Shown here: one piece after another, positions 49,490 to 61,702 of the stretch | Numbering within the stretch: position 1 is the first letter of the stretch | Layout of the letters: each line of letters begins with the position of its first letter | Assembly (NCBI RefSeq): GCF_000023885.1 | Contig: NC_013165.1 | Coordinates: forward strand, 1,364,001-1,428,000 | From: Slackia heliotrinireducens DSM 20476 | Lineage (GTDB): Bacteria > Actinomycetota > Coriobacteriia > Coriobacteriales > Eggerthellaceae | Direction: 5' to 3' | Length of the DNA: 64,000 bases | Notes under the pieces: generated by a model | Database searches by the model: none | What the model was told of the DNA's origin: nothing | The model's input: the letters and a program-made list of their open reading frames with translations, nothing else | Made by a program: the position numbers and the translations under genes

Positions 49490-50002
49490 ATGGATGACAT
49501 GCCTGAAAACAATGCGGTTGACAAAGACGGGGGCTTTCTTGTGCGCAAGGTGGCCGGGCGCACGCGTTTCGTCGCAACGGTGCCTGCGGTGGGCCTGCTG
49601 ATCTCTTCGGTCGTGCTGGCGTTAGAGACGCTCGTCGCGCTGGTCGTCTCGTCGGGCGAATACCTGATGGGCGAAATCAGCCTGCACGACCTGACCATCG
49701 ATTTCATCGAGGACGCCGACGCGTTCCTGCTCGCCGTTGCGCTGTACATACTGTCGATCGGCCTCGTGAACCTATTCATTAGCGAGAACATCCCTCTTCC
49801 CAAATGGCTCGAGTTCAGAGATTTCGACGACCTGAAGGAGCGGTTGACCGGCGTCATCGTTGTGATGATCGGCGTGTTCTTCCTGGGCCACGTGCTGAAA
49901 GGGGCTCAGGGCATCGATACGCTATGGATCGGGCTGGGCTGCGCCGCAATCATCATCGCCCTGTCGGTCTTCATGGGGACGGTTTTCAAGCACGGAGATT
50001 AG
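49490..50002 (+). CDS. YqhA/UPF0114-like membrane protein
   Basis: 170 residues from the ATG at 49490 (GGGGTGG upstream); an ATG three codons later is an alternative. Three or four membrane helices: VATVPAVGLLISSVVLALE near 29-47, a second near 85-100 and two at the C-terminus. The pattern of a long amphipathic stretch with PLPKWLEFRDFDDLKERL between helices is typical of the YqhA family. Function unknown in any organism. Confidence 0.82.
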   Translation: MDDMPENNAVDKDGGFLVRKVAGRTRFVATVPAVGLLISSVVLALETLVALVVSSGEYLMGEISLHDLTIDFIEDADAFLLAVALYILSIGLVNLFISENIPLPKWLEFRDFDDLKERLTGVIVVMIGVFFLGHVLKGAQGIDTLWIGLGCAAIIIALSVFMGTVFKHGD

Positions 50003-50042
50003 CGAGCAGGGAAGTATCGTAATATACCTGTGACATCGAGGG

Positions 50043-50066
50043 CCGCGCGCTTCATCTAGCGCGCGG
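50043..50066 (+). terminator. Hairpin after the YqhA-like gene
   Basis: CCGCGCGC/GCGCGCGG, an 8-bp stem with 8-base loop, followed by CTTCTTG; a moderately good terminator. Confidence 0.6.
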
Positions 50067-50773
50067 CTTCTTGCGGTGTGTGAGGCACGACAAGGATTAT
50101 CGCTCATTTTGCTGCTGTGTCTGCGGCGATGTCCAGGTGCACAGCTTTGCGTAATGGGTGAAGAAAGTACCGATACTTATAAATGTGAGCAATAGGACAC
50201 ATTGCGCATGCCGGAGGGCTCTCCAGTGAGCCAGCAGAATGTGTGCCAAGTAGGTTCTATTGCCCGAAAGGCCAAACCTCGTCGTAGCGTCCGCCTGCGC
50301 GGCTCATCCGGCTTGGACCCATCGCCTGCGAGCAAAACCTGTAGCCAGTCCAAACAATGAACAACTATCGTCTCAATGCATGCCGCCATACCATCCTTGG
50401 CAAGAGCTCGGCAGGCCATCGCTAGCGCAAACACTCAAACCCAAAGCAGATGCACCCCTTCGCTAAAGCACCCGAATGCCCACCTGAAATGCGGTTAGGA
50501 GCCATCTGGAAGCCAGTTTTAGTGGTTGGATATACCCATCATGGCGGCAACTGGGTCGTTTCTTGCGGCTACAAGCCCGTTTGCGCTACATTTTCGCTAT
50601 CCATAAAACAATTAAAGCTAACTCAAACTACAATACGCTCAGCAATTCGATCAACGACGTAGGGCGAATGAAGCGTTGTGGTTTCGCTCTTACGGAATTG
50701 TCGAATGGGGAACGTGACTGAGGGTATGCGGTCATGGCAACCATTGCAAAGTTGCCAAACCAAAAAGGACATA
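50067..50773. other. A/T-richer spacer at the left edge of the glycan locus
   Basis: No supported gene. Base composition shifts towards A+T here. GGCAAC/GTTGCC forms a small hairpin at 50738-50757, just before the first copy of the leader RNA element. A TACAAT near 50629 is a possible -10 for the long leader. Confidence 0.4.
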
Positions 50774-50892
50774 GCTTGGTTTCGCAGAATCGTCGCTTCG
50801 GCGCGTTCTGGCTGGGTCAAGAGGATGAATACAGCGCCAATAATGCAGACGTCGTAACGTCTGCATATAACGCAATTCACCCTTGACCAAGC
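50774..50892 (+). promoter_or_regulatory. Leader RNA element, copy A (LoaP-operon structured leader)
   Basis: A three-way junction can be drawn. P1: GCTTGG 50774-50779 with CCAAGC 50887-50892. P2 (50784-50812): GCAGAA, CG and CGC pair with GCG, CG and TTCTG/C around a TTCG tetraloop, with single bulges. P3: TCAAG 50817-50821 with CTTGA 50882-50886, GG/CC, TGAAT 50826-50830 with ATTCA 50875-50879, GCG/CGC. P4: a 9-bp perfect stem ATGCAGACG/CGTCTGCAT at 50843-50851 and 50858-50866. The P2 region is repeated exactly in copy B. Confidence 0.65.
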
Positions 50893-51254
50893 CGGAAACT
50901 GCAACTCGCACTACAGCCATGCCAATGTAGAAGCGCCGATGTTAAAACCCAGCCCAAAAGCTGCTTTTAACGAATCGGAGTCGAAGCGAAACCATACCAT
51001 TCAAGGTATATATGCCAGAGAACATAGGTACATATTACCATATTTGAATTCTATGTGTCAATTCACCTTCTAGACAAGTTCCTTGAATAGAGTTGGAGCG
51101 CGCTCAAACTAAAATTCTGTCGATCAATTTGTTAGATAAGCGTTCGTTTTACGTGCACCGCTGGGGTCAACGATTCTTGACGGCAAAGTGCTCGCAAAAA
51201 GGGCTGAATTCAGCCAGTTAGCCATTCATGTTGGCCAACTAACGGAAGGGACAT
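50893..51254. other. Spacer between the two leader RNA elements
   Basis: A/T-rich with several dyads: GTTAAAA...TTTTAAC near 50941-50970, the palindrome GGCTGAATTCAGCC near 51201-51215 and GTTAG/CTAAC at 51217-51243. A TTGACG near 51177 is a possible -35. No gene is supported; no clear intrinsic terminator with a T run was found. Confidence 0.4.
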
Positions 51255-51375
51255 AGCTTGGTTTCGCAGAATCGTCGCTTCGGCGCGTTCTGGCTGGTCA
51301 AGGGGATGAATACAACGCAGGATCGCGCGGCTGCCAGGCGGCCGCGTTAACAACGTTGTACTCCCTTGATAAGCT
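51255..51375 (+). promoter_or_regulatory. Leader RNA element, copy B (immediately before loaP)
   Basis: Same architecture as copy A. P1: AGCTTG 51255-51260 with TAAGCT 51370-51375 (one G-T). P2 is identical in sequence to copy A. P3: TCAAGGG 51298-51304 with CCCTTGA 51363-51369 and TACAACG 51311-51317 with CGTTGTA 51354-51360. P4: CGCGGCTGC 51326-51334 with GCGGCCGCG 51338-51346 (one T-G). P3 and P4 differ in sequence from copy A but keep pairing. It ends 27 bases before the loaP ATG. Confidence 0.68.
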
Positions 51376-51402
51376 GGAACGTCTGAGAAACCAACAATCA
51401 TT

Positions 51403-51912
51403 ATGTGGTACGTAATCCAAGTAGGAACCAATCAAGAAGACCGCGTCATCGGTCTCATTCGGTCGTTCGTCGGTAAGGATGTCCTGAAAGAGGCGTTTGT
51501 ACCCCAGGTCGAAGTCATGCGCCGTTCTAGGGGGCAATGGCAGAAGCGCAAGGAGCTTCTGCTACCAGGATACGTCTTTGTGATTGCGACAGATCCCGAA
51601 AAGCTAAATCAGGCGCTTATCGATGTACCGGCTTTTACGCGCCTCCTGGGTAATGACGTCTCTTTTACGCCATTGCTGGATGATGAGATTAAATTCCTCG
51701 AAGCTTTTACGGCCCCAGATCGACGGATTGTTCGCATGAGCAAAGGCGTGATCGAAGGCGATCAGATCATTATCAACGAAGGTCCGCTGAGAGGCCAAAC
51801 TGGCCTGATTAAGCGCATTGACCGTCACAAGCGTTTGGCGTATCTCGAGATGACGGTCATGGGTCGTAAGAAGATGATCAAAGTCGGTCTCGAGATTGTT
51901 TCCAAGAGTTAA
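51403..51912 (+). CDS. loaP: LoaP-type transcription antiterminator (NusG paralogue)
   Basis: Specialised NusG-family protein of 169 residues. The NGN domain begins MWYVIQVGTNQEDRV and contains KRKELLLPGYVFV near residues 44-56; the C-terminal KOW domain reads EGPLRGQTGLIKRIDRHKRLAYLEM near 126-150. LoaP proteins in Firmicutes and actinobacteria sit in front of polysaccharide or polyketide operons and antiterminate them using a leader RNA hairpin. Here it is the first gene of a long glycan operon and is preceded by two copies of a structured leader. Confidence 0.92.
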   Translation: MWYVIQVGTNQEDRVIGLIRSFVGKDVLKEAFVPQVEVMRRSRGQWQKRKELLLPGYVFVIATDPEKLNQALIDVPAFTRLLGNDVSFTPLLDDEIKFLEAFTAPDRRIVRMSKGVIEGDQIIINEGPLRGQTGLIKRIDRHKRLAYLEMTVMGRKKMIKVGLEIVSKS

Positions 51913-51962: not shown

Positions 51963-52871
51963 GTGAGCGCTCCTTTGATGGAGCGCTCGAAAGAAAAGGC
52001 TACAGAGGTTTTCCGCATGATTCCATCGATGAATGCTGCTTCTAAACAAGTAGAGTCAATGATAGATTCTGGAACACAAACAACTGGCAGTGATAATGTG
52101 ATTCGGATTTCCCGTGATGGCATTCTGCAAAATGTCGTCAATGCTGATGGTTTTGGAAATAGAGAAGTCGATTATCGTTCTTGTAATCTTTGCCCTGACG
52201 ACATGGGCCTTGCCGCGGTTGACGAAACAACTCAGGTCGAAAAGCCCGTAATCAAAAAACCGCTTTACTATCGGTTTATTAAACGGGTTTTCGATATATG
52301 CTTTAGCGCTTGCGTAATTGTGGTCGGGTTTCTTCCTGGCCTGATATTGAGTGGATTCATAATGAGGGACACTGGCGGAAGTCCCATTTATTCTTCCGAA
52401 CGCATTGGTCGTGGGGGCAAACCATTCAAGGTATACAAGTTTCGTTCGATGGTTGCTGATTCGGACAATCTCGAGAAGTATTTTACGCCTGAACAGCTTG
52501 AGCTTTGGCATCTCGAGCATAAGGTTGAGGACGATCCCCGGATTACCAAACTTGGCCGGTTTTTGAGGTCGTCGAGCATCGATGAGTTTCCCCAGTTCAT
52601 TAATGTGTTACTAGGTCAGATTAGTGTTATCGGACCACGTGTGATTACGGCTGAAGAAGTGGGATATTTTGGTAAGGATCGCGATTGCCTTCTTTCGGTC
52701 CCGCCGGGAATTACGGGACTTTGGCAGACAAGCGAGCGCAATAAGGCAACTTTTGAAAGCGGAGCTCGTCAGGAGCTCGAGCTCTTCTACGCTCGCAACT
52801 GCAGCTTGAAGACTGATGCCGAAATATTTCTAAAGACTTTTAAAACCATGATTGAAGGGACGGGGAAGTAG
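51963..52871 (+). CDS. Undecaprenyl-phosphate sugar-1-phosphate transferase (priming enzyme)
   Basis: Initiates repeat-unit assembly by moving a sugar-1-phosphate onto undecaprenyl phosphate. 302 residues from GTG 51963; the ATG at 52017 with AGAGG at 8 bases is a credible shorter start. After a variable 100-residue N-terminus come one membrane helix (DICFSACVIVVGFLPGLIL) and the bacterial sugar-transferase domain: YSSERIGRGGKPFKVYKFRSM near 140-160, DDPRITKLGRFLRSSSIDEFPQ near 190-210 and GITGLWQTSERN near 250. Short WcaJ/EpsL-type architecture. Confidence 0.92.
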   Translation: MSAPLMERSKEKATEVFRMIPSMNAASKQVESMIDSGTQTTGSDNVIRISRDGILQNVVNADGFGNREVDYRSCNLCPDDMGLAAVDETTQVEKPVIKKPLYYRFIKRVFDICFSACVIVVGFLPGLILSGFIMRDTGGSPIYSSERIGRGGKPFKVYKFRSMVADSDNLEKYFTPEQLELWHLEHKVEDDPRITKLGRFLRSSSIDEFPQFINVLLGQISVIGPRVITAEEVGYFGKDRDCLLSVPPGITGLWQTSERNKATFESGARQELELFYARNCSLKTDAEIFLKTFKTMIEGTGK

Positions 52872-52872
52872 C

Positions 52873-53655
52873 ATGCCTCATGAAGTCAATCGGAGGGATT
52901 TGACGATTGTAGTTGCTACTCACAAGCCCTACTGGATGCCGGATGACCCTTGCTATCTTCCCGTACAGGTAAATGCCGGCTCTATGCAGCCGATAAGAGG
53001 ATTTCAGCCTGATAATGTAGGGGATAATATTTCAGAAAAGAATCCAAATTACTGCGAACTCACGGCATTGTATTGGGCCTGGAAGAACCTCGAATCGGAA
53101 TACCTGGGACTTGCCCATTACAGACGTCATTTCGCAGCACGCAGGCTTGGAGATAAGAAATCTCGAGTTGCAAGTGGTGATCAACTTAAAAATGCTTTGT
53201 CGCATGTCGATGTGTTGCTGCCGACGCCGCGGAATTACTTTATTGAGACTAACTATAGCCAATATGTCCATGCCCACCACGAAGAAGATCTTGCCTTTAC
53301 CCGGGAGATCCTGACGGAGTATGAACCGCATCTCGTTGGTTTGTACGACGAAGTAATGAATCGCACGTACGGGCATAGGTTCAACATGTTTGTCATGAAG
53401 CGCACAGTGGCAGATGAGTGGTGCGAGTGGCTCTTTAAGGTTTTATTTGAGTTGGAGAATAGGCTGGACATCAGTAACTACAGCGCAAACGATGCTCGAG
53501 TGTTCGGCTTCGTGAGTGAGCGGCTACTGGATTATTGGGTCGAATCGCGAGGCATTGCATATGTAGAGATGCCCGTGGTAAACCTTGAGAGCCAGCACTG
53601 GTTTAAGAAAGGGGCTAGCTTCTTGGCTAGAAAGGTTGCTGGCAGTCGTGGTTAA
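52873..53655 (+). CDS. DUF4422-type glycosyltransferase
   Basis: 260 residues. Opens with LTIVVATHKPYWMPDD near residues 10-25 and contains the family signature YCELTALYWAWKN (near 59-71) followed by GLAHYRRHF (near 79-87). DUF4422 proteins are found in capsule and teichoic-type clusters and are predicted glycosyltransferases (galactofuranosyl or similar). The ATG lies one base after the stop of the previous gene, and the 3' end overlaps the next gene's start. Confidence 0.88.
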   Translation: MPHEVNRRDLTIVVATHKPYWMPDDPCYLPVQVNAGSMQPIRGFQPDNVGDNISEKNPNYCELTALYWAWKNLESEYLGLAHYRRHFAARRLGDKKSRVASGDQLKNALSHVDVLLPTPRNYFIETNYSQYVHAHHEEDLAFTREILTEYEPHLVGLYDEVMNRTYGHRFNMFVMKRTVADEWCEWLFKVLFELENRLDISNYSANDARVFGFVSERLLDYWVESRGIAYVEMPVVNLESQHWFKKGASFLARKVAGSRG

Positions 53656-54679
53656 GTCAGCTCTACACTTCGAAACAGCACCGAAGCCCACCATAAGCGT
53701 CGTCATCCCCTTCTACAACCTTGAGGCGGAAGCGCCTAGATGCTTGGATTCGGTTCTTTCGCAAACGTACGAAGACTATGAAATCATCTGTGTAGATGAC
53801 GGTTCTGTGGACGGCACCCCGGCCGTCCTTGATGCATATGCATCGGATCACGCTAGGATTCGTGTGATCCATAAAGAAAACGGCGGATTATCCGATGCAA
53901 GGAATTGCGGTGTGGCTGCATGCAGGGGAACATATGTCAGCTTTATAGACGGTGATGATGTCGTTTCACCCTGCTATCTCTCTTCTATGGCTCAAGCCAT
54001 GGAAGATGCGCCAGATAGGTTGATCATCGGGACTTGCTTAGACGTGAATGAGGATTGTGTTGCGGCTGCGCTTGAGAAGATGCCTGGCTCTACAGCTGCT
54101 AAAGATTTGTCGCACGAAGATGCATGCAAGGCAATATTAGCAAAGCGATTACCGACGTGTGCGCCGGCTAAGCTGTTCAACCTTCGCTATTACAAAGAGC
54201 ACCCGTTTCCTCTTGGCGTTCGTTATGAAGAGGTTCGAACGATAGGGAAACTGATGGCCTGCGCCAAAGAAGTGCGTGTGATTGAATCTCCTATCTATGG
54301 ATACGTCATCCGTGAAGGTTCGATAGTTCATGCGCAAAATGCCACCATTGAGCAAGGCACTGAGTATGTCGAAGCGATACAAACTGCATTAGATGACTTT
54401 AGAAGGCTTGGCTACAATTTTGAAAATGACCTCGCATTTTTCGATTCATTGATGCATGTAAGAGTTCATGATTTCACAAAACGCATGGCGAACGAATCGG
54501 AAGCACGAACGATAGACGAGATGGCAAGGGCCTCTGTCAAGGCGAGCTATCGGAAGGCGGTCCGTTGTGAACGTGCCAGTAGGGCGCAGAAGGCACGTTT
54601 GGCGTTGTTTAGGTATGCACCCATTCTATATGACGTAGCTATGCCAGTTTATAACCGTCTATTCAAAGGCGTGCTTTAG
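53648..54679 (+). CDS. Family 2 glycosyltransferase
   Basis: 343 residues from a GTG overlapping the previous stop by 8 bases (AAAGG upstream); starts further upstream lie inside the preceding gene. GT-A motifs: ISVVIPFYNLEAEAPRCLDSV near residues 15-35, IICVDDGSVDGTP near 46-58 and the DxD-containing FIDGDDVVSP near 98-107. A C-terminal helical region of 120 residues follows. Donor and acceptor unknown. Confidence 0.9.
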   Translation: MVKSALHFETAPKPTISVVIPFYNLEAEAPRCLDSVLSQTYEDYEIICVDDGSVDGTPAVLDAYASDHARIRVIHKENGGLSDARNCGVAACRGTYVSFIDGDDVVSPCYLSSMAQAMEDAPDRLIIGTCLDVNEDCVAAALEKMPGSTAAKDLSHEDACKAILAKRLPTCAPAKLFNLRYYKEHPFPLGVRYEEVRTIGKLMACAKEVRVIESPIYGYVIREGSIVHAQNATIEQGTEYVEAIQTALDDFRRLGYNFENDLAFFDSLMHVRVHDFTKRMANESEARTIDEMARASVKASYRKAVRCERASRAQKARLALFRYAPILYDVAMPVYNRLFKGVL

Positions 54680-54688
54680 TCTTAATGA

Positions 54689-55669
54689 ATGGATTTCAGA
54701 ATGAATAAGCTTTCTACGTTTGAAGCATTTAAGCATCTTCATGGCAAAGGTGCCTACAAGGTGGTTGAAGGTGACGATTTGCAAGCACTGCAAATCGTTT
54801 TGTTGGATATGATGTTGGATATTGACGCCGCATGCAAAAGAGCATGTATCGACTATATGCTATTCGCCGGAAGCTGTCTGGGGGCATACAGGGATGGTGG
54901 GTTCATCCCTTGGGATGACGATCTGGATATTGCAATGGATCGTATGAGCTATGAGCGTTTTTGCAAAGCCTTTAACGATGAGCTCGGTGACGGGTACATT
55001 CTACAAACCCCGCTCGATACGAAAGAATACGGATTGACGTTTGCACGCATTCGTAAGCGTGGAACAACTCTCAAATGTCGCGATGACCTACTAACTGATG
55101 GCGAATGCGGGGTCTACATAGACCTTTTTATATGGGAGTCGGCGCCTGATAATCCGATTCTTAGAGCGTTGCATGGATTTGGTTCACTAGCGATAGGGTT
55201 CTTGTATTCCTGCAGGCGGTTCGCATGGTATGGCGATACGTATCTGAACATGGCCCAAGGCGACGCTCAGCTATCGCGCGTATTCAAGCTGAAGAATGCC
55301 ATTGGCAAAGTGCTTTCATTTGCAAGCATCGACGCATGGACCCATGCTTGGTATCGTTGGAACGCATTATGCAAAAACGAAAAGTCGCGATTACTGACTA
55401 TCCCCAATGCACGTAAGAAGTATTTCGGGGAGATTTACGAGCGGTCGGTAATTCTTCCAATGCGCAGACTGGATTTTGAAGGAAAGCTTCTTATGGGGCC
55501 GAACTCCATAGAGGATTATCTGGCGCAAGCTTTCGGGGCGGATTACATGACTCCACCGCCTCCGGAGGCTCGTGAAAAGCACATTGTATTTGAATTTGAT
55601 TTGGGAACCGCTGTCGAAGACGCAATTGCGAAACGAGATATGACATCGGGCTTTCCCGAAGGAGATTAA
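54689..55669 (+). CDS. LicD family phosphotransferase (first of three)
   Basis: 326 residues. The LicD core is LLDMMLDIDAACKRACIDYMLFAGSCLG (near 38-65) and DGGFIPWDDDLDIAMDR (near 69-85), the nucleotidyltransferase-type DxD that binds metal. LicD proteins transfer phosphocholine or another phospho-alcohol from a CDP donor to surface sugars. A second ATG at 54701 is an alternative start. The stop overlaps the next gene's ATG by one base. Confidence 0.9.
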   Translation: MDFRMNKLSTFEAFKHLHGKGAYKVVEGDDLQALQIVLLDMMLDIDAACKRACIDYMLFAGSCLGAYRDGGFIPWDDDLDIAMDRMSYERFCKAFNDELGDGYILQTPLDTKEYGLTFARIRKRGTTLKCRDDLLTDGECGVYIDLFIWESAPDNPILRALHGFGSLAIGFLYSCRRFAWYGDTYLNMAQGDAQLSRVFKLKNAIGKVLSFASIDAWTHAWYRWNALCKNEKSRLLTIPNARKKYFGEIYERSVILPMRRLDFEGKLLMGPNSIEDYLAQAFGADYMTPPPPEAREKHIVFEFDLGTAVEDAIAKRDMTSGFPEGD

Positions 55670-56682
55670 TGATGACAAGGGATTATGACATTGATTTCGT
55701 GATACCTTGGGTTGATGGAAGTGACCCTGCTTGGCTTACTGAGAAAGCCAACTATTCCGGTTCTGACATGGGGATTGAGGATAGCATTGCGCGCTATCGC
55801 GATTGGGGTCTTCTGCGTTATTGGTTTCGAGGGGTCGAGCAATTCGCACCTTGGGTCCGCAAGATACATTTTGTAACATGGGGGCATTACCCCGAATGGC
55901 TTAACTTGGATCATCCGAAGTTGCATCTCGTCAAACACGAGGACTATATTCCCGAAGAGTATCTGCCTACGTTCAGTGCTAATACTATCGAGCTTAATTT
56001 TCATCGCATTGAAGGATTAGCTGACCGCTTTGTTTACTTCAATGATGATATGTTTCTGATTCGTCCGACGAAAGCGGAAGACTTCTTTGAAAAGGGTCTA
56101 CCAAAAATACCGGCAATTGGCACCCCTTTAAAGGTCGGCTATGGAGATTGGTTCTTTATGTCTATCGTGGACAATGCTGTGATAAACCAGCACTTCGATT
56201 TTCACGGCGTAGTCAAGAGACACCCTCTTAAGTGGATCAATCCAAAATACGGCTTAAATGTGCTTCGAACGCTTACGGTTCTTCCCTATCCATATTTCTG
56301 CGGAATAATGGAGTTCCATCTTGCGAACCCACTTACCAAGAAAGCTTACCTTGAGGTCTGGGAAAAAGAAGAGGCGCTTTTGGATTCAACGTGCCGCAAT
56401 CGCGTTCGAAGTACGTTCGATGTCAATCAGTATCTGGTAAAGAACTGGCAGCTTGCCAAAGGCGAGTTTATGCCTGGAAACCCAGCATTGGGTAAAGCGT
56501 TTCAGTTCAGGGATACCCCAATGATCACCTTGAAGGATATGGCAACATATATTGAGTCTGGGCATGGCAGAATGGTGTGCATTAATGATTCTGCAGTTAT
56601 CGAAAAGGCAGATCAGGTCATAGTCGGTTGCCAGCGTATTATGAAAAAACTATTACCCAACAAATCAGCATTTGAATTATAG
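55669..56682 (+). CDS. Stealth family sugar-phosphate transferase
   Basis: 337 residues with all conserved regions of Stealth proteins: CR1 [15 protein letters not shown] near residues 8-22, CR2 [29 protein letters not shown] near 43-72, CR3 [13 protein letters not shown] near 120-132 and the C-terminal CR4 region. Known members are hexose-1-phosphoryltransferases that build phosphodiester-linked capsules (for example meningococcal SacB). This supports a phosphodiester in the backbone of the polymer made here. Confidence 0.92.
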   Translation: [337 protein letters not shown]

Positions 56683-56690
56683 GTGAAAGT

Positions 56691-57914
56691 GTGCCTGCTC
56701 TTTTAGCCATTATTGCAATATTAATGCCTGCCATTGCGTTGTTTTTGCAGGTGGCAACTTATTCACGTAACTGCAATCCTGTATTTCTAGGCGTTGTGGT
56801 TGGTATTGCAATGTCGGGTATTGCGTTTGGGCTGTATAGCACGTCCATCTATAGCGATTTGACAACTTATACTAATCAAGCGATGCAAACAAGCGGTCTA
56901 AGTCTCGGGCAGTCCTTTGATTTGTTCTCCAGAACGCACATAAATGATACCCCATTGGCAATCGTGTGGTTTTGGTTGATTGGTCAATCTGGAAATGCTC
57001 AACTCTATCCTGCGAGCATAGCCTTTGTGGAGTATTCGATCATCGGATACATCTTCACTGATTACTCAACAACCCGTGGGTACAGTAGGCGTCAGTACGC
57101 GCTTCTTCTTGTCTTGTTGATTGTCTCTTTGCCACTCTATAATTCCGTTGCCTCTGTTAGGAGCACTCCAGCGATGGCGATCGGATTACTTGGCCTTTAC
57201 CTCGTTTTTGTTAAAGAGGTTAAAAACCCCTTGGTTTTCAGTCTTTTCATTGTGTCCATCCTTATTCATTCGGTAGGTTTCATTTTCATTCCGCTTGTCT
57301 TCTTATGTCAAATTGGGAAAAACAGGCCTATGATTGCGGTTCTATTGGCAATCGCGCTATTGCCGGTGGTCTTCTTTAGCGCTTATACGCTTGAGCCTAT
57401 TTTTTCTTATTTTGGCTTCTCCGTTGTGAACAAGGTTCAGGCATATGTGGGTGGCAGCGAAAGCGAATATGCCCTCCATGTTCTTAGCAGCGATTATCTT
57501 CAGGTCAAGAAATGGACTTCAATTGCGTGGGCTAGCGTCGCATTGGTTTTGCAGTGTCATATTGCTGCGAGGTTTTGTAAGAACGACGAACGGTTTGAGC
57601 ATCTTGTAATAATTGGAATAATGCTTTGTGCCAACGTTGTCAGCTTTGGAATACTGATCACCGTTCCTTCGTATGCGCGATTTCTATATACGGCTGTTCC
57701 CATTTCGATTCTTGTTGTCACTGGCGCAATCCTAAATACGTCTATTACTAACGATTTCGAACGAGGCGGTTTCTGGGGTTTAGTCACTGTTCTCTTCTTT
57801 GTGCTCTCCCTTGCGGTCATTGTGGTTGCTTTGTACGACGTGCCCAGACGCATTGCTATTGGATTGCTTATGAATCATGTGCTGTTGGGTTTCTTTGGAA
57901 CGATTCTGTTGTGA
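56691..57914 (+). CDS. EpsG/Wzy-like polysaccharide polymerase
   Basis: 407 residues from a GTG with AGGTGAAA upstream. Roughly ten to twelve membrane helices with a periplasmic loop containing TTYTNQAMQTSG near residues 57-68 and a second loop near 245-270 (GGSESEYALHV). This matches the topology of EpsG-family polymerases that join lipid-linked repeat units outside the membrane. Sequence conservation in this class is low, so the call rests on topology and cluster context. A+T-rich codon use. Confidence 0.82.
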   Translation: MPALLAIIAILMPAIALFLQVATYSRNCNPVFLGVVVGIAMSGIAFGLYSTSIYSDLTTYTNQAMQTSGLSLGQSFDLFSRTHINDTPLAIVWFWLIGQSGNAQLYPASIAFVEYSIIGYIFTDYSTTRGYSRRQYALLLVLLIVSLPLYNSVASVRSTPAMAIGLLGLYLVFVKEVKNPLVFSLFIVSILIHSVGFIFIPLVFLCQIGKNRPMIAVLLAIALLPVVFFSAYTLEPIFSYFGFSVVNKVQAYVGGSESEYALHVLSSDYLQVKKWTSIAWASVALVLQCHIAARFCKNDERFEHLVIIGIMLCANVVSFGILITVPSYARFLYTAVPISILVVTGAILNTSITNDFERGGFWGLVTVLFFVLSLAVIVVALYDVPRRIAIGLLMNHVLLGFFGTILL

Positions 57915-57924
57915 GGGGTTGCTT

Positions 57925-58650
57925 ATGCTATTTGAATTGAAGCGCTGTTCGTACTTGAGAATAAAAAAGATTGTTAATCGTTATTCTGTCCTCAAGAAAA
58001 TGAATACTATACGGCGAAGGATTCGTGGTTCAAAAGGGCGCAAGGCCGTAGAGCAGAATGGATTGAAGACGGCCTCCGCAGTAGTATCGATTATGGAAAA
58101 TTCAGGATTCGAACCCGTTCTTTCGTTCGGAACTTTATTAGGTGCTGTTCGCGAACATGATTTAATTCATGGGGACAACGACATTGATCTTGGTATTATC
58201 GTTGATTATAACGACGACGAAACGTGGCGCAAGGTTCGTAGCGTACTGGAAGAAGGCGGTTATCAACTGCTCAGGCAGTATTCGTATTCCGGTAGTATCA
58301 CCGAGCAAGCGTATGGCGCGGATGGCTTCTCGTTTGATGTTTGGGGGTTTTTGCGCGAACCCGATGGTAGGCATTTGCGGTCTTTCTACCATTGTCGTAT
58401 AGACGAAGGTGTGTACCATTCTGATAGAGACAGGTCAATCAAGTACATTGACATGCCAGTTTTTGAAAATCGGAGGTACACAAAGGTTGGTGAGTACCAA
58501 CTCCCTGTGCCGATTAATGCAGAACAAATGGTTGCAGCTGTGTATGGTGATGACTGGCAAACGCCCAATCCGAATTTCGTAGCGGGTACGGGGTTTACGC
58601 TTGTAGAGGGCGTTGTCGAAACGTACCAAGAATTTATGTCTGGTCATTAA
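57925..58650 (+). CDS. LicD/fukutin-like phosphotransferase (second of three)
   Basis: 241 residues from the ATG at 57925 (GAGGGG upstream). The core reads SFGTLLGAVREHDLIHGDNDIDLGI near residues 71-95, where DNDID replaces the usual DDDxD, and FSFDVWGFLREPDG near 140. The protein is divergent from the two other LicD proteins here and closer to the fukutin-like branch. A phospho-alcohol or phospho-sugar transfer is expected. Confidence 0.83.
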   Translation: MLFELKRCSYLRIKKIVNRYSVLKKMNTIRRRIRGSKGRKAVEQNGLKTASAVVSIMENSGFEPVLSFGTLLGAVREHDLIHGDNDIDLGIIVDYNDDETWRKVRSVLEEGGYQLLRQYSYSGSITEQAYGADGFSFDVWGFLREPDGRHLRSFYHCRIDEGVYHSDRDRSIKYIDMPVFENRRYTKVGEYQLPVPINAEQMVAAVYGDDWQTPNPNFVAGTGFTLVEGVVETYQEFMSGH

Positions 58651-58686
58651 AATTGGCATAGCATTTTTCGCGTAAATGGCTTCAAG

Positions 58687-59961
58687 ATGGATATTCAACG
58701 TAAATCTCTAGCAAACAATACGCTCATGCTTTTCCTGTTGACAGGGTCGAATTATGTGTTCGGCCTTATCACGGTCCCATATCTCACGCGTGTTCTCGGT
58801 GCCGATTTGTATGGACAAATTGGGTTCGGCAGCGCATTTTACACGATAGCCCTGCTGTTCCTCGATTTTGGATTTCTATTGTCGGGCACGTTAGAAATAG
58901 CGAAATGTGGAGACGATCGCGATTCGATAGAACGCGTTTATTCTGCTGTATTGTCTGCGAAAGTGATGGTGGCTATTCCCGTAACTATCGTAGCAAGCGT
59001 AATTATATTGTTTGTCGACCGTTTCAACACCGATCCCGTTTTTTATTTCTGGTGGTATTTCTACGCGGTCTCGAATTCAATGGTTCCAGATTTTCTGTAC
59101 CGTGGACTTGAGAACATGTCTTCTGTAACCATTCGAAACGTCATTGTTAAAGCGGTGTTCGCTGCATGCATATTTCTGTTCGTGCAATCGCATAGCCAGT
59201 ATATGCTTGTCCCTGTGTTTCATTTTGTGGGAGCCGCCGTCGCGCTCATTATCATGTATGTGCATGTGCGCAATCATTTAGGTCTCCATGTGCGTAAAGT
59301 ACCCTTTCGGGACGTATGGGATCAAGTTAAAAAATCCTCGCTGTATTTCCTGTCTAGGATTGCCGGGACGGTATTCTCAAGCATGAACACTATGGTGCTT
59401 GGCTTCATTGCCCCGACAGGTCCGACGCTTGGATACTACACAGCTACTAATACCGCTATTCATGCTGGACAGCAGGCCATAACGCCTGTGACAGGTAGCC
59501 TATTCCCGAACATCGTACGCACGAAGAACTATAAGATGGTTTTAAAGGTAGCGTTTTGGGGTGAGGTTATTCTGATTTCTGGCTGTGTTGCAGTCGCGAT
59601 CATTGCTGAGCCTCTTTGTATATTTGTATTCGGCCCAGAGTATGCCGGGATGACTTCTATGCTTCGAATAATGTTGCCTATGATTCCGATTACGTTGCTT
59701 ACGTATCTATTTGGTTGGGCAGGTCTCGGCTCCATGGGTAAAGACGTCGTAACTAACGTCTCCGTTATCGTGGGCGCCGTTTTTCACGCATCTGTTTTGG
59801 CGGTCTTGTTCTTGTTTGGCTATTTGGACGTTTATACGATGTGCATTGCCACAGTTGCTACGCAGATGCTAATTCTGGCCATTCGCGCATTTGCGTTCGT
59901 AAAGGGGCTTCTTGACTTGAAGCGCCGTAGCTCGTCTGCTGGGGTGGAATCCTTATGGTAG
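58687..59961 (+). CDS. Wzx-type oligosaccharide flippase
   Basis: 424 residues with about twelve membrane helices. N-terminal SLANNTLMLFLLTGSNYVFGLITVPYLTRVLG is the typical Wzx/RfbX start (MOP superfamily), moving lipid-linked repeat units across the membrane for polymerisation. With the EpsG-like polymerase and the priming transferase it completes a Wzx/Wzy pathway. Its stop overlaps the next gene by 7 bases. Confidence 0.9.
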   Translation: MDIQRKSLANNTLMLFLLTGSNYVFGLITVPYLTRVLGADLYGQIGFGSAFYTIALLFLDFGFLLSGTLEIAKCGDDRDSIERVYSAVLSAKVMVAIPVTIVASVIILFVDRFNTDPVFYFWWYFYAVSNSMVPDFLYRGLENMSSVTIRNVIVKAVFAACIFLFVQSHSQYMLVPVFHFVGAAVALIIMYVHVRNHLGLHVRKVPFRDVWDQVKKSSLYFLSRIAGTVFSSMNTMVLGFIAPTGPTLGYYTATNTAIHAGQQAITPVTGSLFPNIVRTKNYKMVLKVAFWGEVILISGCVAVAIIAEPLCIFVFGPEYAGMTSMLRIMLPMIPITLLTYLFGWAGLGSMGKDVVTNVSVIVGAVFHASVLAVLFLFGYLDVYTMCIATVATQMLILAIRAFAFVKGLLDLKRRSSSAGVESLW

Positions 59962-60740
59962 AGATGACGCTGGATGAGATCCATGAAGCTGAGCTAGGGA
60001 TGTTGGAGTGCCTGGATGCGTTCTGTGAGCAGCACGATATTTCATATTACCTTGCTTACGGAACGCTGCTTGGTGCAATAAGACATGGGGGATTTATCCC
60101 GTGGGATGACGATGCTGATGTATGGTTACTTCGAAAGGATTACGATCGTTTCCTAAGTTTATTCGAAGAGGATGAGACATACAGATTAATTCGTCCTTTC
60201 CAGCCTGAATATGGCTTCGGATGGGCGAAGATTCTTGACAAGAGGACAGCCTATAGGCACGAAAGCGTCGTTAGGCCTGATGATTATGGACTTACAATAG
60301 ATTTGTTTCCCCTCGACTGTGATGGGGGAGAAGCATTCTTCCAAAGAATGCAGAAGTTATCGAGATTGAGGAAGATTAAGTGGTATAAGCATAAGGCTGG
60401 CAGCGTTCAGGGGCCAAAACGGATACTAAAGAAAGTCTTAGCTAGGTTTGTACCCGAACGTCTTATTGATGAACGAGGCTTTCAAGCCGCGCTTGATAGC
60501 GGGCAGAAAAATGGCCGGGTCTTAAACTGTTTCTCGCGTTACACCTATAAGCAGGAGAGTGCGGATGCGAGCCATTTTGTGCCTGGTTTAAAACTGGCTT
60601 TTGAAGGCGAGCATCATTTCTCTGTGCCACGAGATCCCGAAAGGGTTTTAGAGCGAATCTATGGAAAAGACTGGAGGGTTCCTGTCGTCGATTCGCATCC
60701 GACAAAGGTTTTTTGGCGAGATGGGTTTCCGTCGAAGTGA
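59955..60740 (+). CDS. LicD family phosphotransferase (third of three)
   Basis: 261 residues, a classical LicD: MLECLDAFCEQHDISYYLAYGTLLGAIRHGGF region near residues 16-47 and IPWDDDADVWLLRKDYDRF near 48-66. C-terminal VYGKDW-type ending (RIYGKDWRVP) is also typical. It overlaps the flippase gene by 7 bases and its TGA overlaps the GTG of the next gene. Confidence 0.93.
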   Translation: MVEMTLDEIHEAELGMLECLDAFCEQHDISYYLAYGTLLGAIRHGGFIPWDDDADVWLLRKDYDRFLSLFEEDETYRLIRPFQPEYGFGWAKILDKRTAYRHESVVRPDDYGLTIDLFPLDCDGGEAFFQRMQKLSRLRKIKWYKHKAGSVQGPKRILKKVLARFVPERLIDERGFQAALDSGQKNGRVLNCFSRYTYKQESADASHFVPGLKLAFEGEHHFSVPRDPERVLERIYGKDWRVPVVDSHPTKVFWRDGFPSK

Positions 60741-61702
60741 CCATCGCCACTAATATCAAACTCCGCCGTCTTGAGCTTGGTCTTACGCAGGACCAGCTTG
60801 CGCGCGCAATAGGTTACAGATCGCGTTCGGCGGTTGCGAAGATCGAATCTGACGCGACCGACTTGCCGGTATCGAAGCTTCTTTTGTTGGCTCAGGCACT
60901 TGATACAACGCCCGAACGCCTATTGGAGGGTGCGGGCGAGTTTTCGTATTCCGATGCTGGTAGCGAGAGCCGTGCGACTCGAGTGGACCATGGTCAGCCG
61001 CGAGTCGCGGCGGTAATCCTGGCTGGGGGACGTTCTTCAAGAAACATGCGAAACGTTCCGAACCAGTTCATCAGCATTCTTGGTAGGCCCGTAGTGGACT
61101 ATTGCATGGAGGCCTACCAATCTCATCCAATGGTGGATGAGATTTACGTTGTATGCCTTGAGGGCTTTGAGGACATTATGAATGCTTACGCCAGAAGGCG
61201 TAAAGTTACTAAGCTCGTCAAGATTCTGCCCGCAGGTAAGACAGGGGTGCTCTCTGCACGCAAGGGTTATCAGGCGCTTTGCGACAAAGGGTACAGGCCT
61301 AGCGACATAGTTGTGTTCCAGGAATCAACGCGCCCATTCGTAACCGAAGAAATGATTACGGGACTCATACAGGCAACGAGAGAAAAAGGCAGCGTCATAA
61401 CGGGTGAAGTCAGATCGGATAACGTTCAATTCTTTCAGGATGACAATGGCGGGCTGAAGTATCTCGATCGCAATAAGATCATAGACCTTCAGTCTCCGGA
61501 TGCGCACAAGATTTCAGTAGTTAGAGATGTATTCAAGCGTGCAGACAATGAAGGTCATGAGCTGGTTGAGAGCAACATTGGCATGCTTATGTACAATCTC
61601 GGATTCACTCTTAATTTCAGAGAAGGCGCTCGCAACAACATAAAAATCCTCAGGGAAGAGGACGTTGCTGTTGCTACGGCTCTATTAAAGCAGCAAGGTT
61701 AA
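60737..61702 (+). CDS. XRE helix-turn-helix fused to an IspD/TarI-type cytidylyltransferase
   Basis: 321 residues from a GTG overlapping the preceding TGA. Residues 5-62 form an XRE-type helix-turn-helix (IKLRRLELGLTQDQLARAIG, then AVAKIE). After a linker, residues 89-320 form an IspD-like nucleotidyltransferase: AAVILAGGRSSR retains the loop Arg, but the invariant Lys of the PKQ motif is Asn109 (VPNQF). The acidic site reads QESTRPF instead of DAARP, and NIKILREEDV near the C-terminus is normal. It may be a regulator that senses CDP-alditol or a modified enzyme. DNA-binding plus sugar-nucleotide enzyme in one chain is rare. Confidence 0.85.
   Translation: MTIATNIKLRRLELGLTQDQLARAIGYRSRSAVAKIESDATDLPVSKLLLLAQALDTTPERLLEGAGEFSYSDAGSESRATRVDHGQPRVAAVILAGGRSSRNMRNVPNQFISILGRPVVDYCMEAYQSHPMVDEIYVVCLEGFEDIMNAYARRRKVTKLVKILPAGKTGVLSARKGYQALCDKGYRPSDIVVFQESTRPFVTEEMITGLIQATREKGSVITGEVRSDNVQFFQDDNGGLKYLDRNKIIDLQSPDAHKISVVRDVFKRADNEGHELVESNIGMLMYNLGFTLNFREGARNNIKILREEDVAVATALLKQQG

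Follow-up and report, generated by a model that had tools for sequence, protein, structure and literature searches.

A doubled leader RNA linked to loaP, with competing arms, upstream of a glycan gene cluster in Slackia heliotrinireducens

Why should the leader of a single glycan gene cluster carry the same RNA element twice, and what might such an element do for the antiterminator gene that stands behind it? The question is raised by a stretch of 64,000 nucleotides from Slackia heliotrinireducens DSM 20476 (hereafter the window), which lies within one 3.17-Mb contig and in which a leader of 1.4 kb, between a UPF0114 gene and loaP, holds both copies of the element (Table 1). The original prediction had placed these copies in front of a LoaP-controlled glycan operon, and the genes it expected are indeed there: the protein encoded belongs to LoaP by the curated cut-off of NF033641, and glycan genes follow it, as listed from a Pfam scan in which two frames in between were left out. 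Within the glycan cluster we also observed, by Pfam, a helix-turn-helix domain fused to an IspD-type cytidylyltransferase (60713-61702). As for the leader itself, Rfam at gathering score returned only four tRNA matches for the window, none of them at the element, and a permissive threshold added a single hit in the leader, on its other strand and short of the gathering score. A scan of 50000-51420 on the + strand found neither a sigma-70-type promoter nor a terminator-like site.

The two copies, predicted to lie about 480 bp apart, form a direct repeat of 52 nt with 98% identity (50764-50815 and 51246-51297), 482 nt from start to start, and the spacing thus stood. The extent did not: the repeat is longer than had been described, with a weaker similarity (score 33, reached by 2 of 200 shuffles) that precedes each copy for some 160 nt and further similarity into the arms, and therefore points to a duplicated module of about 300 nt, whose upstream parts (50605-50634 and 51086-51115) are possibly promoter regions. 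The P2 segment is identical between the copies, as had been claimed, and beyond these two the genome holds no instance of the 38-nt identical stretch over it, even when as many as three mismatches are allowed. We found no plasmid DNA similar to the window leader, and a search of genome contigs with the LoaP protein gave one relative, in a Gordonibacter assembly. The duplication, which the original prediction took to be undescribed, is real and rare, the window being alone in having two elements at one loaP among the 93 loaP genes with an element in the class sample.

Table 1. Features of the window leader and of the genes around it (positions within the window).
Feature	Position	Strand	Basis and remarks
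UPF0114 gene	ends at 50002		Upstream border of leader; ORF list and Pfam
Upstream part of duplicated module, copy 1	50605..50634	+	D2 repeat, 70%, spacing 481; putative promoter region (possible)
LoaP leader RNA, copy 1 (modelled core)	50766..50843	+	R1 E 7.0e-15, 67.6 bits; also among the 34 seeds
Copy 1 P1, 5' strand CUUG	50775..50778	+	Partner CAAG 50818-50821; class-wide P1
Copy 1 P2 hairpin	50785..50810	+	Two single-U bulges around CG/CG step; UUCG loop 50797-50800
Copy 1 3' half capturable by arm (P2 3' strand, P1 3' strand, GAUGAAU)	50806..50830	+	Duplex -31.8 kcal/mol, 0/200 shuffles
Copy 1 P1, 3' strand CAAG	50818..50821	+	Class-wide P1; position read from sequence
Copy 1 apical hairpin (P4 of the original prediction)	50844..50865	+	Folding
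Copy 1 competing arm (3' strand of P3 and P1 of the original prediction)	50875..50897	+	Duplex and folding
Upstream part of duplicated module, copy 2	51086..51115	+	D2 repeat; putative promoter region (possible)
LoaP leader RNA, copy 2 (modelled core)	51248..51324	+	R1 E 9.5e-14, 63.7 bits; also a seed
Copy 2 P1, 5' strand CUUG	51257..51260	+	Partner CAAG 51299-51302; class-wide P1; position read from sequence
Copy 2 P2 hairpin	51267..51292	+	UUCG loop 51279-51282
Copy 2 3' half capturable by arm	51288..51306	+	Duplex -24.2 kcal/mol, 1/200 shuffles
Copy 2 P1, 3' strand CAAG	51299..51302	+	Class-wide P1; position read from sequence
Copy 2 apical hairpin (P4 of the original prediction)	51326..51346	+	Folding
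Copy 2 competing arm	51361..51379	+	Duplex and folding
loaP, NusG-paralogue antiterminator	51403..51912	+	NF033641 165.2 bits against cut-off 125 (NCBIfam)
Bacterial sugar transferase, first glycan gene	51963..52871	+	PF02397; TIGR03022 below its cut-off
Glycan genes: DUF4422, GT2, LicD, Stealth CR1/CR2, EpsG-like, Polysacc_synt, HTH-IspD	52873..61702	+	Pfam and ORF list

What the two copies share with their relatives is a compact unit, namely a short P1 (CUUG with CAAG) set immediately around a two-bulge P2 hairpin and followed by a GAUGAAUA tail. A block upstream of loaP is shared among relatives, one simple pattern fitting 44 of 69 loaP loci. The 34 sequences from which the covariance model R1 was built come from loaP loci of the family; the alignment behind it omits two offset duplicates as well as rows nearly identical to others, and includes four rows added by hand. 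The elements were collected from 100 given sources, two of which (L034 and L084) had no match; 16 loaP loci presumed to be without the element had been kept out of this set, and the R1 search later matched one of them (L078). In the alignment fitted to the model (A2; 99 rows, 91 distinct), 93.1% of 1344 cells are paired and 13 of the 15 pairs show two-sided changes, while in P1 all five modelled pairs do so, with 90.5% of cells paired; a MAFFT alignment (A1) gave 92.1% paired and 12 of 15 pairs. None of 500 shuffles came as high as A2 on any of five measures, and controls in which the partners were slid by 1 to 3 columns were 30-66% paired. Class-wide, P1 is mostly YCUUG with CAAGR, and P2 runs from a lower stem through a one-nucleotide bulge, in most cases U, to a CG/CG step whose first C-G is replaced by G-C in L134 and L135; beyond this step lies a second bulge, usually U or A, and then the upper stem with its loop. 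Both window copies have a tetraloop of the UNCG type, UUCG; elsewhere in the class the loop is variable, and a UNCG loop is not general.

The element is closely linked to loaP. Among 138 genomes of the family, R1 had a match in 35 and loaP stood over its cut-off in 38, a recovery of the family's loaP loci that is by construction because the seed came from them; this does not apply to matches in the order's other families. The covariance search of class genomes, which the original prediction had proposed as a check, gave 101 matches in 71 of 396 genomes and, far from showing the repeat to be unconnected with loaP, placed 94 of the 101 on the same strand 18-563 nt upstream of it (median 95). Counted by gene, 93 of the 148 class loaP genes, the window's included, have an R1 element upstream and 55 do not. 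loaP over the cut-off was found in 68 of the 71 class genomes with a match and in 35 of the 325 without, counts that are not independent because the genomes are related. When 396 genomes of the phylum were searched, 16 had a match, 15 of them within the order, to which all 18 genomes with loaP over the cut-off also belong. Opposite the sole match outside the order (G718) runs a long frame with a masked stretch, which by eye resembles RNA polymerase beta'; this match was taken as chance, though the RNA model R2 gave it E 1.3e-4.

The seven class matches that fell outside our first loaP criterion are themselves informative. In three (L119, L160 and L116) the next gene is of the NusG type, with LoaP as its best NCBIfam model (125.3, 124.1 and 103.6 bits against 125); two (L117 and L129) precede broken loaP-like frames; and in L159 the contig ends after the element. 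The seventh (L115, G108:C1:2370790-2370867) stands before a PF02397 sugar-transferase gene, with no loaP there and loaP elsewhere in the genome, and as read from its sequence is likely a LoaP target in trans. Two elements of the family search (L118 and L120) also precede loaP-like genes, that of L120 with a masked stretch. Tandem loaP-like genes with the element between them were observed in L054, L058, L059, L060, L065, L079, L116, L118 and L119. R2 was searched in 30 sources, which comprised 19 loaP loci from among the 55 in the class that R1 had not matched, nine more loaP loci from the family, L163 and L083. Upstream matches were present at E <= 0.01 in 11 of the 19, four of these being a divergent form of the element with ACAUACCGUUCACGGUG, and at E <= 0.1 in 16, with none at E <= 1 in L179 and L180; among the nine further loci, L034 alone matched at E <= 1. 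Since loaP loci negative for R1, some of them negative for R2 as well, do occur, the element is common and not universal.

Is P2, then, the hairpin that LoaP would recognise, as the original prediction proposed? The linkage of 94 in 101 argues for it, and so does a comparison outside the class. In the plasmid record CP079755.1, loaP is divergent from a metallo-hydrolase gene (PF00753) and fabD, and AATCGATGTTTCGGCACGTT stands upstream of the latter two genes on their strand; judging by its genes, we take this leader to be dfn-type. AATCGATGTTTCGGCACGTT and the window's AATCGTCGCTTCGGCGCGTT have the same 20-nt two-bulge frame and 16 of 20 letters in common, one differing pair being compensated and another changed from C-G to U-G, so that the bulged stem is the same as in a loaP-linked hairpin outside the class. 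A 20-nt pattern drawn from these hairpins matches once in L083 and twice in the window, and in none of the shuffles of each. The plasmid leader of L083 shows a possible P1 in its predicted fold, in a stretch that folds no better than shuffles. The two-bulge pattern with a UUCG loop is absent from viral contigs and a looser one from L084, and a phage search with the LoaP of L083 gave seven weak NusG-like matches. PMC12691694 reports that LoaP binds a UNCG hairpin and that antitermination depends on this hairpin. The window leader element, judged by these likenesses, very probably recruits the cluster's own LoaP.

PMC12691694 also describes, in the dfn leader, a pause between the hairpin and a separate terminator, and reports that deletion of the 10 nt before the hairpin abolished antitermination, an effect it leaves unexplained beyond the authors' thought that the deletion might disturb hairpin function. 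The 5' strand of P1 in our element falls inside the corresponding 10 nt before P2, and P1 offers a possible reason for this requirement.

The remainder of each copy was described in the original prediction as a P3/P4 arm, and the complementarity is there in both: P3 pairs 50826-50830 with 50875-50879 in copy 1 and 51311-51317 with 51354-51360 in copy 2, and P4 pairs 50844-50851 with 50858-50865 and 51326-51331 with 51341-51346, respectively. This pairing goes beyond chance, the folds lying 4.9 sd (copy 1) and 2.6 sd (copy 2) below dinucleotide shuffles and the arm duplexes being equalled by 0 and 1 of 200 (Table 1). The P3 strand base-pairs with the tail and with the 3' strands of P2 and P1, and by capturing the latter it excludes P1; P3 is better read as a strand in competition with P1 and the lower part of P2 than, with P4, as a passive scaffold or second sensor. 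When P1-P2 is imposed on the full-length window RNA, the structure lies 15.0 (copy 1) and 14.5 kcal/mol (copy 2) above the minimum, and the full-length ensembles, computed with no protein, give P1 a probability below 1e-8 and the P2 pairs at most 0.40 (copy 1) and 0.02 (copy 2). An RNA that ends at GAUGAAUA is predicted to fold into a P2-like hairpin (-16.5 kcal/mol in copy 1, -16.9 in copy 2), from which the P1-P2 form differs by no more than 1.2. As the full-length RNA without protein prefers the arm, a scheme in which P1-P2 is the active form needs co-transcriptional order or LoaP.

Arms of this kind were sought across the class by pairing the 3' half of each element, from the 3' strand of P2 to GAUGAAUA, with the 130 nt that follow and comparing the duplex with 200 dinucleotide shuffles. 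Of the 99 aligned rows 97 entered this test, those that were repeats or had a short or masked stretch downstream being set aside. At p <= 0.005, that is, at most one of 200 shuffles, for which about one of 97 is the chance expectation, 14 of the 97 elements have an arm: ten from the genera g22, g27, g32 and g48, both window copies, L160 and L161. Nine of the ten arms in this clade have 14-18 uninterrupted pairs (G-U allowed) running from the P1 3' strand into GAUGAAUA, the tenth (L023) has two eight-pair runs split by a mismatch, and all ten have a U-rich run at the base, e.g., UUCUUUU or UUUUUUAUU; by its letters the clade arm is a predicted intrinsic terminator, with the P1 3' strand contained in its 5' arm. 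A predicted intrinsic terminator further along the leader is present in the L022-type clade and absent from the window leader, where the arms pair well and no U-tract follows either of them; such a terminator, although described for dfn, was not counted as defining for all LoaP targets. Because 83 of the 97 elements are without a comparable arm, a switch of this kind is not general.

We favour, with a probability of about 0.6, the reading that each copy is a LoaP-recruiting leader RNA whose P1-P2 would be captured early and whose arm would act as a late competitor. The nascent RNA leaving the promoter would fold first into P1-P2; LoaP would recognise the two-bulge P2 hairpin closed by P1 and board RNA polymerase; and the polymerase that bears it would read through terminators along the long glycan operon, of which loaP is the first gene, a position that would bring positive feedback. 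Without LoaP, the arm, transcribed about 45-50 nt later, would pair with the element's 3' half and remove P1 and part of P2. In the one clade the refolded hairpin would be an intrinsic terminator, which LoaP would block locally while modifying the polymerase for the rest of the operon, and P1 there would therefore be a LoaP-stabilised antiterminator. In the window, an arm without a U-tract would bring the time for loading to a close, or act via pausing or Rho, and the second copy may give loading another chance, or each copy may serve a start site of its own.

A further proposal, which we put forward tentatively, is loading in two parts: the LoaP-bound P1-P2 RNA would be joined, some tens of nucleotides later, by an ops-like consensus pause, GGCGAAGCCATG, so that LoaP would read the paused complex as well as the RNA; P1 would double, in some lineages, as the antiterminator of an overlapping terminator, and the window, being without the pause motif, would double the station instead.

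P1-P2 alone might, on the other hand, be the whole LoaP recognition element, the window arms being inert spacers or mRNA-stabilising hairpins and the duplication neutral. The many elements that have no comparable arm (83 of 97), the missing U-tract after the window arms and the doubling at only 1 of 93 loaP genes with an element would all sit well with this; yet both window copies, diverged as they are, keep pairing with the same 3' half, and comparable arms recur in L160, in L161 and in one four-genus clade, there with the U-rich run at the base, which leads us to regard it as rather doubtful. Far less probable is the three-way junction first proposed, in which a closing stem P1, P2 and a P3/P4 arm would form a scaffold or second sensor. 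The letters of that closing stem (GCTTGG/CCAAGC in copy 1, AGCTTG/TAAGCT in copy 2) are complementary in both copies, with changes, but together with P2 it lies 7.8 (copy 1) and 9.9 kcal/mol (copy 2) above the minimum, its highest pairing probability is 4e-5 and 1e-5, respectively, and the relatives conserve a different P1, pairing the 5' strand, with covariation, to the CAAG just after P2; folding thus lends this P1, and with it the three-way architecture, no support. A metabolite riboswitch, or another regulatory RNA merely near loaP, would fit in size and covariation but is hardly credible in view of the lack of an Rfam match, the close linkage to loaP and the match of P2 to a loaP-linked hairpin outside the class.

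Several other motifs were observed around the elements. GGCGAAGC (logo AUGGCGAAGCCAUG) occurs within 200 nt 3' of 65 of the 99 elements (e.g., L040, L050 and L074), 62 of the 65 lying 9-38 nt after the modelled element end; its reverse complement was found in 2 of 99, and the motif itself in the 350 nt upstream in 4 of 99. No GGCGAAGC-like motif is present 3' of either window copy. Its GG...TG spacing is that of ops (GGCGGTAGCGTG), which PMC5995543 describes as a consensus pause read by RfaH; GGCGAAGCC is a putative pause site in relatives. The possibility that GGCGAAGC is a covarying hairpin was tested and dropped, as it does not covary. Additionally, GGAAACTGC, mostly as GCAGGAAACTGC (a stem with a GAAA loop), lies 24-173 nt upstream of 21 of the 99 elements (e.g., L025, L049 and L147), and the window has one GGAAACTGC 3' of copy 1, at 50894-50902.

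A 16-bp repeat is found at the megabase capsule inversions of Eggerthella lenta, which the preprint PMC13174815 links to phage escape. We observed this repeat some 105-122 nt past the point where the loaP match ends in G064 (L185), G063, G066 and L025, lying in the first of these (G064:C1:2865367-2865382) inside the start of the next sugar-transferase frame (PF02397). With the repeat just after loaP, the leader RNA and loaP would form a fixed expression site for swapped capsule operons; near the other two 16-bp repeats of G064 there is no R1 match. An invertible site at the window locus was considered and dropped because the repeat is absent there, up to three mismatches being allowed.

In the open-access literature on LoaP, NusG paralogues, Eggerthella, Collinsella and the structured RNAs of Coriobacteria we found no description of a covarying LoaP leader element; the primary papers on the LoaP hairpin, beyond that scope, may show leaders of the class. 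The 91 distinct aligned sequences give a consensus for the LoaP leader, which lets LoaP targets, those in trans too, be found by search, and the class alignment suggests that the UNCG loop is dispensable. Furthermore, the element concerns the capsule-type clusters of gut bacteria, including the kind inverted in Eggerthella lenta (PMC13174815).

Among known systems, the element is a variant of the LoaP hairpin leader and not a separate kind of system. ANTAR and TRAP systems are attenuators with a protein-controlled antiterminator, and their likeness to it lies in the mutually exclusive P1 and terminator hairpin seen here in one clade; in contrast to them, the protein presumed to bind here is a NusG paralogue of the processive kind, which should move along with the polymerase. 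RfaH (PMC5995543), too, is a NusG paralogue recruited in a leader, and many members of the class carry a GGCGAAGCCATG-like motif that shares with ops the TG at positions 11-12; RfaH, however, reads non-template DNA, and the window copies are without the motif. The UpxY capsule leaders of Bacteroides (PMC7819879) share with this locus a NusG paralogue that starts a glycan operon and acts, at this locus by prediction, within the leader ahead of its own gene. UpxY is nevertheless a different subfamily, the window protein scoring 51.8 bits against the UpxY cut-off of 100. With the dfn-like leader of CP079755.1 the likeness is the two-bulge frame of P2. The dfn/mln leader of Bacillus velezensis (PMC12691694) has in common with the locus the NusG paralogue LoaP and, at the 5' end of a long operon, a leader that contains a UNCG hairpin. 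Set against dfn, the hairpin here is flanked by a covarying P1 and a GAUGAAUA tail, and its loop need not be UNCG; in one clade the element overlaps a terminator, whereas the dfn terminator is described as separate, with a pause between; and here the element precedes loaP itself and, in the window, is doubled.
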